Of a stretch of DNA of 64,000 bases, positions 42,779 through 47,750 are shown piece by piece (positions within the stretch are counted from its first letter, which is position 1; each line of letters begins with the position of its first letter). The stretch is from Sphaerochaeta associata. GTDB taxonomy: Bacteria > Spirochaetota > Spirochaetia > Sphaerochaetales > Sphaerochaetaceae. Made by a program: the position numbers and the translations under genes. The notes under the pieces are model-generated. The model worked only from the letters and a program-made list of their open reading frames with translations, searched no databases and was not told where the DNA came from. Location of the stretch: assembly GCF_022869165.1 (NCBI RefSeq), contig NZ_CP094929.1, positions 1,860,001 to 1,924,000 of the forward strand. The letters run 5' to 3'.

Positions 42779-44134
42779 ATGAACGAATCTACCAACCAAT
42801 TCTATCTTGATCGTCAGAATCAAACCGAATCCAATGCACGTACCTATCCCCGCAAGTTCCCCATTGCAATCAAACAAGCTAAAGGCTCCTACCTTATCGA
42901 CGTAGAGGGCAACAAATATCTCGATTTTCTCTGTGGTGCAGGCACACTAGCCCTTGGACACAACGACGATGAAGTCAATCAGGCAATGATCAACCTTCTG
43001 ACCAACGACTTTCCCCTTCATACCCTGGACCTAACCACTCCGATCAAAGACACCTTTGTACAGACTCTCTTCAGTCTGCTTCCCGAAGAATTGAGAACCA
43101 ATGGTAAAATCCAGTTCTGCAGCCCCAGCGGCACCGATGCCGTCGATGCAGCGATCAAGCTGTGCAAGACTGCAACCGGACGTTCTTCGGTCATCGCCTT
43201 CGGCGGCGGGTACCACGGCATGGGTCACGGAGCCCTCGCCCTCACCGGCAATCTCAATGCCAAAAGCCAGGTCAACGGCCTGATGCCCGATGTACATTTT
43301 TTCCCCTACCCCTACTCATACCGCTGCCCGTTCGGTCTTGGCGGAGAAGCGGGCGTCGATGCCGCCTGTGCAGTCTTTGAGCGAACGCTCAAGGACCCTG
43401 AAAGCGGTATCACCAAGCCTGCCGCAGTTATTCTTGAGACCATCCAGGGTGAGGGAGGCGTCGTCCCGGCTCCTATCAAATTCCTGCAGACGGTGCGCCG
43501 TGTCACCAAGGAACTCGACATCCCCATGATAGTCGATGAGATCCAGTGCGGAATCGGACGCTCGGGCAAGTTCTTTGCCTTCGAGTATGCCGACATTGTA
43601 CCCGATGTCATTCTTGCCTCCAAAGCAATCGGTGGCTCCCAGCCGATGAGCGTGGTCATCTATCACAAGGACCTTGATGCCTGGCAGCCTGGTGCACACG
43701 CCGGGACCTTCCGCGGCAACCAGCTTGCCATGGCTGCAGGTACTATTGTCATGAATCGCGTGAGCAAGCCTGAATTCCTGGCTGAAGTTGTTGAGAAAGG
43801 CCAGATGATCGTCGACCGCATGACTGCCTTGATGCAGGAAGTCTCCATCATCGGGGACATCCGCAACAAAGGACTGATGCTCGGCATAGAGTTTGTCGAC
43901 CCTCACGGGCAGAAGGACCAGCTTGGATCATTGCCCCAAAGCGGCGTCATTGCCGCTAAAGTACAGAAAGAGTGTTTCAACAACCGCCTGATCATGGAGA
44001 AAGGTGGAAGGTACGGTTCTGTCATGCGCTGCCTGTGCGCCCTCAACGTTACCAAGGATGAGGTTAGACTCATGCTCGATATCGCCGAGAAGGCAATCCG
44101 CAAGGTGGATGCAGATGTCAACTCACACCGATAA
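42779..44134 (+). CDS. dat: L-2,4-diaminobutyrate:2-oxoglutarate aminotransferase
   Basis: A 451-residue class III PLP aminotransferase. FLCGAGTLALGH, SPSGTDAVDAAIKLCKTATGR, VDEIQCGIGRSGKFFAFE and the PLP lysine Lys282 in ASKAIGG are seen. The sequence style and the gene that follows identify it as the enzyme making 2,4-diaminobutyrate from aspartate semialdehyde with glutamate as amino donor (EctB/Dat group). AAGGAA and AAGGG lie before the ATG. It overlaps the decarboxylase gene by 20 nt. Confidence 0.9.
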   Translation: MNESTNQFYLDRQNQTESNARTYPRKFPIAIKQAKGSYLIDVEGNKYLDFLCGAGTLALGHNDDEVNQAMINLLTNDFPLHTLDLTTPIKDTFVQTLFSLLPEELRTNGKIQFCSPSGTDAVDAAIKLCKTATGRSSVIAFGGGYHGMGHGALALTGNLNAKSQVNGLMPDVHFFPYPYSYRCPFGLGGEAGVDAACAVFERTLKDPESGITKPAAVILETIQGEGGVVPAPIKFLQTVRRVTKELDIPMIVDEIQCGIGRSGKFFAFEYADIVPDVILASKAIGGSQPMSVVIYHKDLDAWQPGAHAGTFRGNQLAMAAGTIVMNRVSKPEFLAEVVEKGQMIVDRMTALMQEVSIIGDIRNKGLMLGIEFVDPHGQKDQLGSLPQSGVIAAKVQKECFNNRLIMEKGGRYGSVMRCLCALNVTKDEVRLMLDIAEKAIRKVDADVNSHR

Positions 44135-45572
44135 GCTGCCGTATTTCCTGGGTTTTGATGCGCGGTCCAAGGACGCATACCGCTCGATAATCGACCAGAC
44201 AGTCCAGGCCGTCACCGATTCGGTGACCGATACCGGCGCCTACAAAGGCGCCAGTGTCGAAGAATTGCAAAACCTGATGGAGGCTGCGACCATTCTGCCG
44301 CAGCAAGGATGCGGCTGGGAGGCTGTGCTTGACGAAGTGAAGAGGACCATTCTTCCCAACTTCCTCAGGACCTGGTCGACCAATTACATGGCACACCTTC
44401 ACAGCCCCGCCCTCTTGGAGTCGATCGCCAGCGAGTTGATCCTATCCACCTTCAACCAGTCGATGGACAGCTGGGACCAGTCTCCCATCGCCACTGAAGT
44501 GGAGGTTGCCGTCGTAAGCGAACTATGCAAGCTCTACCGGCTGGGAGACGATGCCGACGGGGTCTTCACCTCAGGAGGCAGCCAATCGAATCTCAGCGCA
44601 CTGACATTTGCCCGTGACTGGTACTGCAACACCGTCCTTGGTCATGACGTAAAGAAAAAAGGCCTGCCCTCCTGCTATCAGAAGCTCAGGCTTTACACCT
44701 CCGAAGTCTCTCACTTCTCCATGGAGAAAAGTGCTCATCTGCTTGGACTCGGCTACGACGCTGTTCGCAAGGTGCCGGTTGACAACCTTTGCAGAATGGA
44801 TGTGAACGCACTGAAAGCAATGCTTGCCGAAGATACCGAGCAGGGTCTGCTTCCCTTCTGCGTTGTTGCAACCATCGGTACGACCGATTATGGTTCGGTC
44901 GACCCGGTTGATACGCTTCGGGAGCTGTGCGACCGGTACAATATCTACCTGCATGCAGATGCTGCATACGGAAGCGGAGTACAGATGTCGTCGACGTACC
45001 AGGACCGCTTGGGAAATCTTGGGTTGTGCGATTCCATCACCGTCGACTTTCACAAGATGTTTTTGCTGCCCATCAGCTGTGGTGCCATCCTGATAAAAGA
45101 CCGCTCGCTCTTTGAAGTTTTCACCCTGCATGCCGATTACCTGAACCGGGAAGAAGATGAAGAAGCCGGCTATACCAACCTGGTAGGAAAGAGCCTGCAG
45201 ACAACCCGCCGCTTCGATGCCTTGAAGGTGTGGATGGCCTTCCAGTGCAGAGGCAAGGACGGTTTTGCCTCCATCATCGACACATGCATCGAGAATGCCG
45301 CGTATCTTGCACAAGCGATTTCATCAAATGACCGGTTTGAACTGGCCATTGCACCCGAGCTTTCCAGTGTGGTATTCCGCCTCAAAGGAAGCTGTGAGAA
45401 GAACAAGCAGGTGAGACGGGAGTTGCTCCATCACCACCAGGTGGTCATCGGCCAGACGGTGTATCAAGGCAGGACCTATCTGAAGTTCACCCTGCTCAAC
45501 CCCATGGTGACCCATCAGCACCTGGATGAGCTGCTTGTATTGATTGAAAAGCTGGGAAACTTGATTCAGTAG
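44115..45572 (+). CDS. ddc: L-2,4-diaminobutyrate decarboxylase (group II PLP decarboxylase)
   Basis: Predicted 485 residues from the ATG at 44115 (AAGGTGG upstream); the open frame starts far inside the aminotransferase gene. Group II decarboxylase marks: SGGSQSNLSAL, HADAAYG, and PLP lysine Lys314 in VDFHKMFLLP. Paired with the aminotransferase it gives 1,3-diaminopropane, as known in Acinetobacter and Haemophilus, a polyamine or norspermidine precursor. No carboxynorspermidine or siderophore genes are in the window. Confidence 0.9.
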   Translation: MSTHTDKLPYFLGFDARSKDAYRSIIDQTVQAVTDSVTDTGAYKGASVEELQNLMEAATILPQQGCGWEAVLDEVKRTILPNFLRTWSTNYMAHLHSPALLESIASELILSTFNQSMDSWDQSPIATEVEVAVVSELCKLYRLGDDADGVFTSGGSQSNLSALTFARDWYCNTVLGHDVKKKGLPSCYQKLRLYTSEVSHFSMEKSAHLLGLGYDAVRKVPVDNLCRMDVNALKAMLAEDTEQGLLPFCVVATIGTTDYGSVDPVDTLRELCDRYNIYLHADAAYGSGVQMSSTYQDRLGNLGLCDSITVDFHKMFLLPISCGAILIKDRSLFEVFTLHADYLNREEDEEAGYTNLVGKSLQTTRRFDALKVWMAFQCRGKDGFASIIDTCIENAAYLAQAISSNDRFELAIAPELSSVVFRLKGSCEKNKQVRRELLHHHQVVIGQTVYQGRTYLKFTLLNPMVTHQHLDELLVLIEKLGNLIQ

Positions 45573-45640: not shown

Positions 45641-46312
45641 TCACCAGCGATACAGAACAAGAAACAGGGATATGGTTGAGAGAATGCTGAACAGCGTACC
45701 GACAAGGAAGTACTCACAGAACGCCTGGGAGTCGGAAAGCTGCTTGCTTCGAGCCAACGTCTTCGCTGCAATAACCCACCCGATAACCCCATATTGTCCA
45801 ATAATCAACAGCAGGACAAGCATAAGCCGCTCCAAATAGCCGATTACCTTTCCAGCACCCTCCGTCCCTTCGCCGGGCAACGGCCGAAACCTTCCGAACA
45901 GCTCGGAGAACAAGACTGAGACCGGCTTTGCAACCCACAACACCAGAACGATGATTCGCAGTGCAGAAACATACCTGATTTCCATGGGAAAATCGGGGAA
46001 CGCCCATACACTGACTCCTGCAAGTACTGCAATATGGCCGAGTTGATCCAGAATAAAGAGAACCGAATTGCGGGCGGTGACATGCATCAGCACATATTTC
46101 AGGAAATCGATAACGGCATGCGAAAGTACAAGAATGAGGAACACATACCAAGAAGAGATGAAGACCATGGGCAGAAAAGCGATGGTATAGAGCAACGAGT
46201 GGATGAAAACGGCTGTGATCTCTTGGCGTTTTCTGAGTGCAAGCTTGTCTGATTGAAAATAGAAATCTCCTAGTACATGCATTGCCAGCAGTACCAACAG
46301 GGAAATGCTCAT
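45641..46312 (-). CDS. DUF3307 family membrane protein
   Basis: A 223-residue protein with about six helices. The N-terminal part has MHVLGDFYFQSDKLALRK and LVLSHAVIDFLKYVLM, the His/Asp-rich pattern typical of DUF3307. It overlaps SatD by 4 nt; these two families are often found together. The function is unknown. Confidence 0.88.
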   Translation of the reverse strand: MSISLLVLLAMHVLGDFYFQSDKLALRKRQEITAVFIHSLLYTIAFLPMVFISSWYVFLILVLSHAVIDFLKYVLMHVTARNSVLFILDQLGHIAVLAGVSVWAFPDFPMEIRYVSALRIIVLVLWVAKPVSVLFSELFGRFRPLPGEGTEGAGKVIGYLERLMLVLLLIIGQYGVIGWVIAAKTLARSKQLSDSQAFCEYFLVGTLFSILSTISLFLVLYRW

Positions 46313-46986
46313 GGATTATTTCCTCCTACGACTTGCAACAAGACTTGCTCGGTCTCTCTGCGTGTATCCAGAAAGGCAAACCAACCCATGGCTTGTATGG
46401 TAGTGTTTATTTGCTGGGTGCTCAGGCCCATCTCCTTGGCCAGCCGGGTTTGGGAGACTTTTTCAAATCCATGGGTAAGCAGATAGTGCCTTGCCAGTTC
46501 GAGCTGGGTGTTCTTCCACTTTGAAGAGACCTGGTCATGCAGAACCAACACTTGGTTCACCAGCCTTTTTACTGACTCAAGGTGCTTGTCCTTAAGGCAG
46601 AAGGCCAGGGTGCGTGTACCATAGTAGTCCTCTTGCTGCACCTGCTGCAAAGCAGTGCGAGCATTCCAGAATGCCGGACCATCGGCAAGAATGCTCTGCT
46701 TGGGATCGATGGCCGTCTCAATGGCACCGAAGCCAAGACCGATTCGTATTCCGCTTTGCACCGACAGTCCATACCTGATACCATCACAAATCTGGAGAAT
46801 CGGGGCCGTTGGGAGAAACAGACCCTGAAAAGCATCGCCTGCATTGACCATCAGAAGGGCTGCCATATGCTGGGAATACCTGTTGTTGAGCGCATTCAGG
46901 GTTTCAAGCAAGAGCTCCTGCAGGGCCTTTCGGTCGGAAGCTTGCCTTGACTGTCGTATATCGCCTACCAATGCGTAGTATTGCAT
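46309..46986 (-). CDS. SatD family protein with C-terminal helix-turn-helix
   Basis: A 225-residue cytoplasmic protein. The N-terminal half has YALVGDIRQSR and NAGDAFQGLF, the SatD pattern; the C-terminal part looks like a helix-turn-helix (QTRLAKEMGLSTQQINTTIQ). With DUF3307 it forms a two-gene unit. No Shine-Dalgarno is seen; TATACT ends 6 nt before the ATG, so the message is probably leaderless. Three direct repeats lie just upstream and may be its own binding sites. Confidence 0.85.
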   Translation of the reverse strand: MQYYALVGDIRQSRQASDRKALQELLLETLNALNNRYSQHMAALLMVNAGDAFQGLFLPTAPILQICDGIRYGLSVQSGIRIGLGFGAIETAIDPKQSILADGPAFWNARTALQQVQQEDYYGTRTLAFCLKDKHLESVKRLVNQVLVLHDQVSSKWKNTQLELARHYLLTHGFEKVSQTRLAKEMGLSTQQINTTIQAMGWFAFLDTRRETEQVLLQVVGGNNP

Positions 46987-46992
46987 AGCATC

Positions 46993-47020
46993 AGTATAGC
47001 ATACCGAACCATATAATCAA
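46993..47020 (-). promoter_or_regulatory. Promoter of the satD-DUF3307 pair
   Basis: On the minus strand TTGATT, 16 nt, TATACT, then 6 nt to the ATG at 46986. The -35 touches the first of the three direct repeats. Confidence 0.5.
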
Positions 47021-47093
47021 CAATTTTCTATTGATATTTAATATATAAACACTTTTTTGTTGATTTTCTTAACTTCTACACTTTTTTGTTGAT
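47020..47093. repeat. Three 16-bp direct repeats at exact 29-bp spacing
   Basis: ACACTTTTTTGTTGAT occurs identically at 47049-47064 and 47078-47093; a third copy ACAATTTTCTATTGAT (13 of 16) is at 47020-47035. Start-to-start distance is 29 bp both times. The last copy lies within the final codons of the YczE-like gene. The layout suggests a multi-site operator for the satD promoter. Confidence 0.7.
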
Positions 47094-47750
47094 ATTCTGG
47101 GCCTGCATGAACAATCCAAGCTTGCGATAGCTTGAGACAAAATCCTCATGCACAACCTTCTTGGGATCAAAGAGCAGCACCTTGAAGGTGATCTGGATGC
47201 AAAAGCCGATAAGAACGGCACTGAGCAGCGTCCCCCATCCCAAGAGGCCTCCCATGAGAAAACCTACGAGTGTGACACTGACTTCCATCGCCCCCCTGCA
47301 GGTCCCAACGGAGAACTTGGTCTTGCGGGAGAGCAGGACCATAAGACTGTCACGGGGTCCCGCCCCGAAACCGGATGAGATGTAGAAGTAGGAAGCCAGA
47401 GAGATGACGAACAAGCCCGCGATGAGCTGCACGACACCCAACACCGGATTGGAAAGTTCGGCAAACAACCCGCTTCCCAGCAGGATATTCATGAACAAAC
47501 CTACGACCACCATATTGCATACCGTGCCGAAGCCCAGCGGCTCCCCGAACAGCATGACGGCAATGCCGATGACCAATCCAACCAAAATGGAAACAGTTCC
47601 GATTTGCAGTCCCAACACCTTTGCAAGGCCTGCATGAAACACTTCCCACGGAGCATAGCCGATGTGGGCCTGCATGGTGAGTACAATACCCGCAGCATAG
47701 AGGAACAATCCAAAGAACAAGCGAAACAAACGAATCACAACAGCCTTCAT
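47076..47750 (-). CDS. YczE/YitT-type integral membrane protein
   Basis: A 224-residue protein with five or six helices. The pattern MQAHIGYAPWEVFHAGLAK, GFGTVCNMVVVGLFMN and SGFGAGPRDSLMVLLSRKT is that of the YczE family. Role unknown; in B. subtilis yczE affects bacillaene production. TAGGA precedes the ATG. Its last codons contain one of the direct repeats upstream of satD. Confidence 0.85.
   Translation of the reverse strand: MKAVVIRLFRLFFGLFLYAAGIVLTMQAHIGYAPWEVFHAGLAKVLGLQIGTVSILVGLVIGIAVMLFGEPLGFGTVCNMVVVGLFMNILLGSGLFAELSNPVLGVVQLIAGLFVISLASYFYISSGFGAGPRDSLMVLLSRKTKFSVGTCRGAMEVSVTLVGFLMGGLLGWGTLLSAVLIGFCIQITFKVLLFDPKKVVHEDFVSSYRKLGLFMQAQNINKKV

Follow-up and report, generated by a model that had tools for sequence, protein, structure and literature searches.

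A tandem palindrome array at 28- or 29-bp spacing before satD: candidate operators of a cyclase-like helix-turn-helix protein

What reads the short repeats that lie at the promoter of satD in Sphaerochaeta associata, and to what effect? The SatD and DUF3307 families, whose genes stand side by side here, are widespread and uncharacterised, and the few papers that we found on them repeat an 'acid tolerance' label. The name-giving member comes from the sat operon of Streptococcus mutans, reportedly described by Kremer et al. in 2001; it falls in the same Pfam family, and the streptococcal members share the partner gene. We analysed a window of 64,000 nucleotides of the S. associata genome (NZ_CP094929.1, 1,860,001–1,924,000, forward strand), to which all coordinates below refer, together with satD loci from a genome collection.

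Repeats and promoter in the Sphaerochaeta window

The following features make up the locus.

45641–46312, minus strand: gene for a DUF3307 membrane protein (Pfam DUF3307, 6.7e-17), its start overlapping the satD stop (ATGA)
46309–46986, minus strand: satD (Pfam SatD, PF16264, 1.6e-44; 152.5 bits against a cut-off of 29)
46993–47020, minus strand: predicted satD promoter by consensus match, TTGATT-16-TATACT, with the -35 TTGATT at 47020–47015, a 16-nt spacer and the extended -10 (TG) TATACT at 46998–46993
47017–47034, minus strand: proximal candidate operator palindrome TCAATAGAAAATTGTTGA, overlapping the predicted -35
47046–47063, minus strand: middle candidate operator TCAACAAAAAAGTGTTTA, with a degenerate right arm
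47075–47092, minus strand: distal candidate operator TCAACAAAAAAGTGTAGA, holding the stop codon (47078–47076) of the upstream ORF
47076–47750: ORF for a YczE-like membrane protein upstream of satD, its match lying below the family's curated cut-off

The 16-mer ACACTTTTTTGTTGAT occurs exactly twice (47049–47064 and 47078–47093), and a third copy at 47020–47035 carries 3 mismatches. The first-pass annotation had reported two identical 16-mers and one 13/16 copy at 29-bp steps, and our check of the sequence agrees (47020, 47049 and 47078). It had further placed the nearest repeat in contact with the -35 of satD and the farthest within the end of the upstream gene; the proximal site does overlap the predicted -35, and the distal site does contain the stop codon of the upstream ORF. 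Allowing up to 3 mismatches, the window holds 4 matches to the 16-mer versus a mean of 0.72 in shuffled sequence, and none of 100 shuffles reached 4.

Positions and spacing were thus correctly described, while the palindromic nature of the sites had been overlooked. On the satD (minus) strand, each unit is an imperfect 18-bp palindrome, TCAAC-N8-GTTGA, with an 11-bp linker, repeated three times at 29-bp steps. A looser consensus, TCAAY-N8-(G/A)TTGA, accommodates the sites in the order distal to proximal (TCAACAAAAAAGTGTAGA, TCAACAAAAAAGTGTTTA, TCAATAGAAAATTGTTGA), whose right arms are partly poor (GTAGA, GTTTA). The sites are better read as palindromes on the satD strand than as plain 16-mer repeats. 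An unbiased scan of all 64 kb at periods of 22–45 ranked this array first among three-site palindromic arrays, with a score of 33/36 versus 28 for the next unrelated one; the listing of a general repeat finder did not include the satD repeat family.

The promoter consensus upstream of satD was matched once with 1.0 match expected by chance, so this match alone is not significant. The -10 TATACT is followed by exactly 6 nt and then by the satD ATG (46986–46998), and the same 6-nt layout was seen by eye in several orthologues (L008, L011, L013, L042–L044). With so short a gap, satD mRNA is probably leaderless in this clade. An RNA element was rejected, since the window array precedes both the predicted -10 and the start. 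Adjoining the satD operon in convergent orientation are genes for a class III aminotransferase and then a PLP-dependent decarboxylase (42779–45572), a pair that we take to be of the diaminobutyrate type.

Array geometry at other satD loci

We took 80 satD loci from the genome collection and scanned the 170 bp before satD for the best palindrome pair, leaving the period (22–45, 24 values tested) and the width (14–22) free. The best period was 28 or 29 in most of the 80 loci. After removal of proteins at least 75% alike, 60 loci remained, spanning Firmicutes, Chloroflexi, Spirochaetes, Fusobacteria and Cryosericum, and 28/29 was the only best period in 46 of them (binomial p ~1e-37 if periods are equally likely). 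A score of 18 or more was obtained for 59/80 regions upstream of satD, for 1/209 regions before the remaining ORFs of these loci and for 0/80 segments inside satD. Repeats at the same spacing are therefore found across a wide phylogenetic range, the opposite of the absence from other satD loci that the first-pass annotation had named as telling against its proposal.

The letters of the sites are lineage-specific: TGTCTGTTATAATAGACA in streptococci, ATGCAGTTATAACTGCAT in clostridia, TTTCCTTAAATAAGGAAA in other Firmicutes, TTGCAATTTAAACTGCAA in Chloroflexi and TCAAGGTTATAACCTTGA in Vagococcus. Two satD genes on haloarchaeal plasmids have GTTCGCCATTACCGGCGAAC sites, which form GTTCG..CGAAC palindromes at 29 bp. 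Because the letters vary by lineage and the period stays constant, what is conserved is the geometry: a palindrome of ~18–20 bp every 28 or 29 bp, in 2–4 copies. We propose an upstream palindrome array at 28–29 bp as a trait of satD family membership, and the satD of the window carries one. The suggestion to look for ACACTTTTTTGTTGAT before satD in other genomes was sound in that arrays are present there, whereas a search with the literal letters would mostly fail.

Could the repeats be functionless, arising by chance or from low-complexity A+T-rich sequence? The intergenic region is A+T-rich, and some 22 single palindromes of the TCAAY-N8-RTTGA kind are scattered through the genome; against this stand the recurrence of the 28/29 period, the near-silent controls and the GC-rich haloarchaeal versions, which leave such an origin scarcely credible. 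Iterons, centromeres and CRISPR arrays are ruled out by the arrangement itself: 2–4 palindromes stand at the promoter of one gene, and neither rep nor par nor cas was seen beside satD.

Within the genome, a literal search found ACACTTTTTTGTTGAT exactly only as the two copies at satD, with near matches isolated; a near match that was read at L003 had no second copy alongside. Genome searches for TCAAY-29-TCAAY and TCAAY-N8-RTTGA gave no second adjacent array and hence no wider regulon, although half-diverged sites could escape them.

Several loci depart from the common arrangement. A clear array was not seen at L046, L081, L100 and L137. The distant SatD relative at L019 (G015 contig 100) has an array with a period of 30 (AGCAATAAAAAAGTATTGCT, TACAATAGAAAATTATTGCT), and a transposase-like gene lies downstream of this satD, where the membrane gene is expected. 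A sister genome carries a broken second fragment of the SatD HTH end ~11 kb from an intact satD (L031; G018 contig 1, 1699919–1700044). The two haloarchaeal plasmid loci (L138, L139) each show two pairs of GTTCG palindromes in a GC-rich setting, with 29 bp within each pair.

SatD fold and covariation with the sites

An AlphaFold2 model of SatD built from 53 sequences (pLDDT 94.5, pTM 0.91), together with Pfam matches and conservation, gives the following layout.

SatD residues ~1–133: cyclase/palm-like domain
SatD, next: helical linker
SatD, C-terminal part: helix-turn-helix (HTH), with the recognition helix at residues 190–200

The C-terminal HTH that the first-pass annotation had assigned to SatD is visible in the model, and Pfam finds it in other members (Sigma70_r4, 6e-7; HTH_8, 1e-5); the main domain, cyclase/palm-like, had escaped notice. 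We confidently assign residues 1–133 of the model to the palm fold (beta-alpha-beta-beta-alpha-beta) that class III cyclases share with GGDEF proteins and Cas10. Foldseek matched the model to cyclases with a probability of 1.00 at modest E-values (best 8.5e-4), and VIA-align gave a Z of 10.6 (131 residues, 3.4 Å), the scores of cyclases, Cmr2/Cas10, GGDEF proteins and GTP cyclohydrolase III lying within 1 Z of one another. Two aspartates are invariant in 53/53 SatD proteins, Asp9 where strand 1 ends and Asp51 in the strand 2–3 hairpin (G-D-[EAS]-F-Q); by the established layout of the fold and the elements of the model, we take them to occupy the positions of the superfamily's two metal aspartates. 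SatD thus resembles class III cyclases and GGDEF diguanylate cyclases in fold (Z ~10) and in having two invariant aspartates in the metal-aspartate elements, but shares only ~10–20% sequence identity with them and differs in its C-terminal HTH and in having a candidate operator array of its own. A sequence search for solved SatD relatives yielded none over the cyclase domain and only weak matches over the HTH. Because of the fold and the invariant aspartates, the modelled cyclase/palm domain probably binds, and perhaps converts, a nucleotide.

If SatD reads the array through its HTH, the letters of the sites should follow the recognition helix. In the 51 non-redundant loci whose arrays were clear, the similarity of half-sites rose with the identity of the recognition helix (r 0.52; partial 0.41 after allowing for the N-terminal domain, permutation p 0.001, a value that is indicative only, as Mantel-type tests can be too lenient with related sequences). 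After accounting for the recognition helix, the N-terminal domain contributed only 0.08 to site similarity. In a blind scan of 214 twelve-residue SatD windows, the top twelve all fell within residues 182–204, around the recognition helix, and the best window outside the HTH reached 0.21 versus 0.37. The period also followed the HTH type: it was 28 in 17/17 long-helix proteins of the KRL type, and 29 in 6/6 other long-helix and 19/22 short-helix proteins.

Since the site letters track the recognition helix and the period follows the HTH type, SatD very probably binds the array, in line with the self-binding on an array of sites that the first-pass annotation had put forward; the two patterns are hard to explain unless SatD is the reader. 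A different regulator, with SatD as a mere neighbour, is very improbable. An unlinked protein could in principle recognise the sites, and the case for SatD rests on covariation, but no other part of SatD tracks the letters as well as its recognition helix, the period varies with the HTH type, and the array stays with satD despite changed neighbours, also in archaea. Moreover, arrays persist where the partner of SatD lacks a Pfam DUF3307 match, clearly at L017 and L018 and more weakly at L020 and L039, which argues that the array goes with SatD.

A model for the operon and its membrane partner

Our preferred explanation, to which we give a probability of roughly 0.83 as a whole, is that the repeats are tandem SatD operators whose cooperative filling represses the operon, with oligomerisation set by a nucleotide. 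Each 18-bp palindrome would be read by a SatD dimer through the C-terminal HTH, and neighbouring dimers would touch through their cyclase-like domains, fixing the distance at 28 or 29 bp from centre to centre. Protein–protein contacts are suggested by the fixed period combined with free linker letters. At 10.5 bp per turn, 28 and 29 bp correspond to 2.67 and 2.76 turns; as these are not whole turns, neighbouring dimers would face different ways, a point against the model, and a row of them would coil around the helix. Cooperative filling of the array would mask the -35, or in streptococci the -10, and repress the operon of satD and the membrane protein gene, and a nucleotide bound by the cyclase/palm domain would set oligomerisation and hence repression. 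The sequence statistics establish the array, its constant geometry, the covariation with the recognition helix and the linkage to the membrane gene, and the fold is a confident prediction, whereas binding, repression, cooperativity and the nucleotide are inferences.

The direction of control is read from where the sites lie. Since they overlap the -35 in the window or the -10 in streptococci, whose sites contain TATAAT, SatD probably represses its own operon. Activation, or activation combined with repression, is an unlikely alternative that draws on some clostridial loci, where the array precedes the presumed -35, a placement compatible with activation, and on the two distal sites upstream of the promoter in the window. 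However, the proximal site at the -35 or -10 occupies the usual place of a repressor, and the essentiality of satD in Streptococcus pyogenes (PMC11323703) fits lost restraint better than lost activation.

Kremer et al. reportedly found in 2001 that S. mutans satD is immediately preceded by a constitutive promoter and that satD mutants are viable, which speaks against the model, as do the few satD loci lacking a clear array and the poor right arms in the window. According to transposon screens of S. pyogenes, satD alone among the accessory genes scored highly as essential, and it was essential wherever tested (PMC11323703). Such essentiality would be expected if SatD restrains a harmful partner, but the reportedly viable S. 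mutans mutants tell the other way.

In nearly all loci whose sequence extends far enough, satD is followed by a DUF3307 gene, streptococcal members included. In the class Spirochaetia, 10/10 strong DUF3307 matches (nine genomes) adjoin a SatD match, and one borderline match (G281) does not. The membrane protein encoded next to satD in the window carries the C-terminal module IGxLER...TAKSxAR...EYxLxGTLxS. Partners without a Pfam DUF3307 match (L017, L018, L020, L039 and L137, an Arthrobacter plasmid) are membrane proteins with the same module, which in its relaxed form reads IGxLER...(T/A)AKxxxR...(F)AEYxLxGTLxS and once occurs as a free-standing 112-residue protein. As it is shared even without DUF3307, this module, which resembles an unnamed domain, looks like the constant partner of SatD, rather than the DUF3307 domain. 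The DUF3307 proteins have membrane helices and invariant residues (H12, D16, Q20, K28, H38, H65, D69, K72, D89, Q90, H93) that point to a metal site or a membrane enzyme and not to simple anchoring. The AlphaFold2 model of the window's DUF3307 protein is all helices, and a search of PDB structures with it returned nothing significant.

Two known systems bear comparison. NrdR is a nucleotide-sensing repressor that oligomerises on tandem boxes at fixed spacing near a promoter (PMC12051234, PMC9110341). The satD arrays share the tandem sites, fixed spacing and promoter proximity, and SatD would share the nucleotide sensing; NrdR, however, is built of a Zn ribbon and an ATP-cone unrelated to SatD, its boxes need whole helical turns (PMC12051234) whereas SatD sites stand 28/29 bp apart, and it controls ribonucleotide reductase genes, whereas SatD goes with a fixed membrane partner. 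In the Panoptes system, a minimal CRISPR polymerase (OptS) and a membrane effector (OptE) form a two-gene operon (PMC12657218). As there, satD encodes a predicted palm-fold protein with two active-site-like aspartates and is followed by a membrane protein gene, but OptS, as published, is an mCpol domain and lacks the HTH that SatD has, and OptE is a 2TM beta-rich effector, unlike the all-helical DUF3307 model. We regard the resemblance as a possible functional lead and not as membership. PADLOC matched none of the window proteins to a known defence system; one clostridial SatD gave a weak CARF-HTH match over its C-terminal part (0.0014). A phage origin was rejected, as SatD was not found in annotated phages or viral contigs.

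By analogy, and tentatively, as we think it rather doubtful, the palm domain could make or hold a nucleotide that keeps the membrane protein silent, with the HTH and array tying expression to the same nucleotide state, so that depletion under stress or phage attack would lift repression and free the membrane effector together. SatD would then be a guard of the Panoptes sort with a transcription switch built in. If true, this would account for the reported status of satD in S. pyogenes as accessory yet essential.

Operator arrays for autoregulation are a known kind, and so are repressors that sense nucleotides, such as NrdR. The open-access literature yielded no description of SatD operators, of a cyclase-like fold in SatD or of a regulator that joins a cyclase palm to an HTH and has a 28/29-bp array throughout its family. 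The next questions concern the membrane module, the nucleotide and the essentiality of satD only where it is present in S. pyogenes. On the sequence and model evidence, the SatD family would gain a concrete role as transcription regulators of a cyclase-fold, nucleotide type with a defined operator; the operator of most satD genes would become predictable, and the regulator–operator code could be read from sequence.
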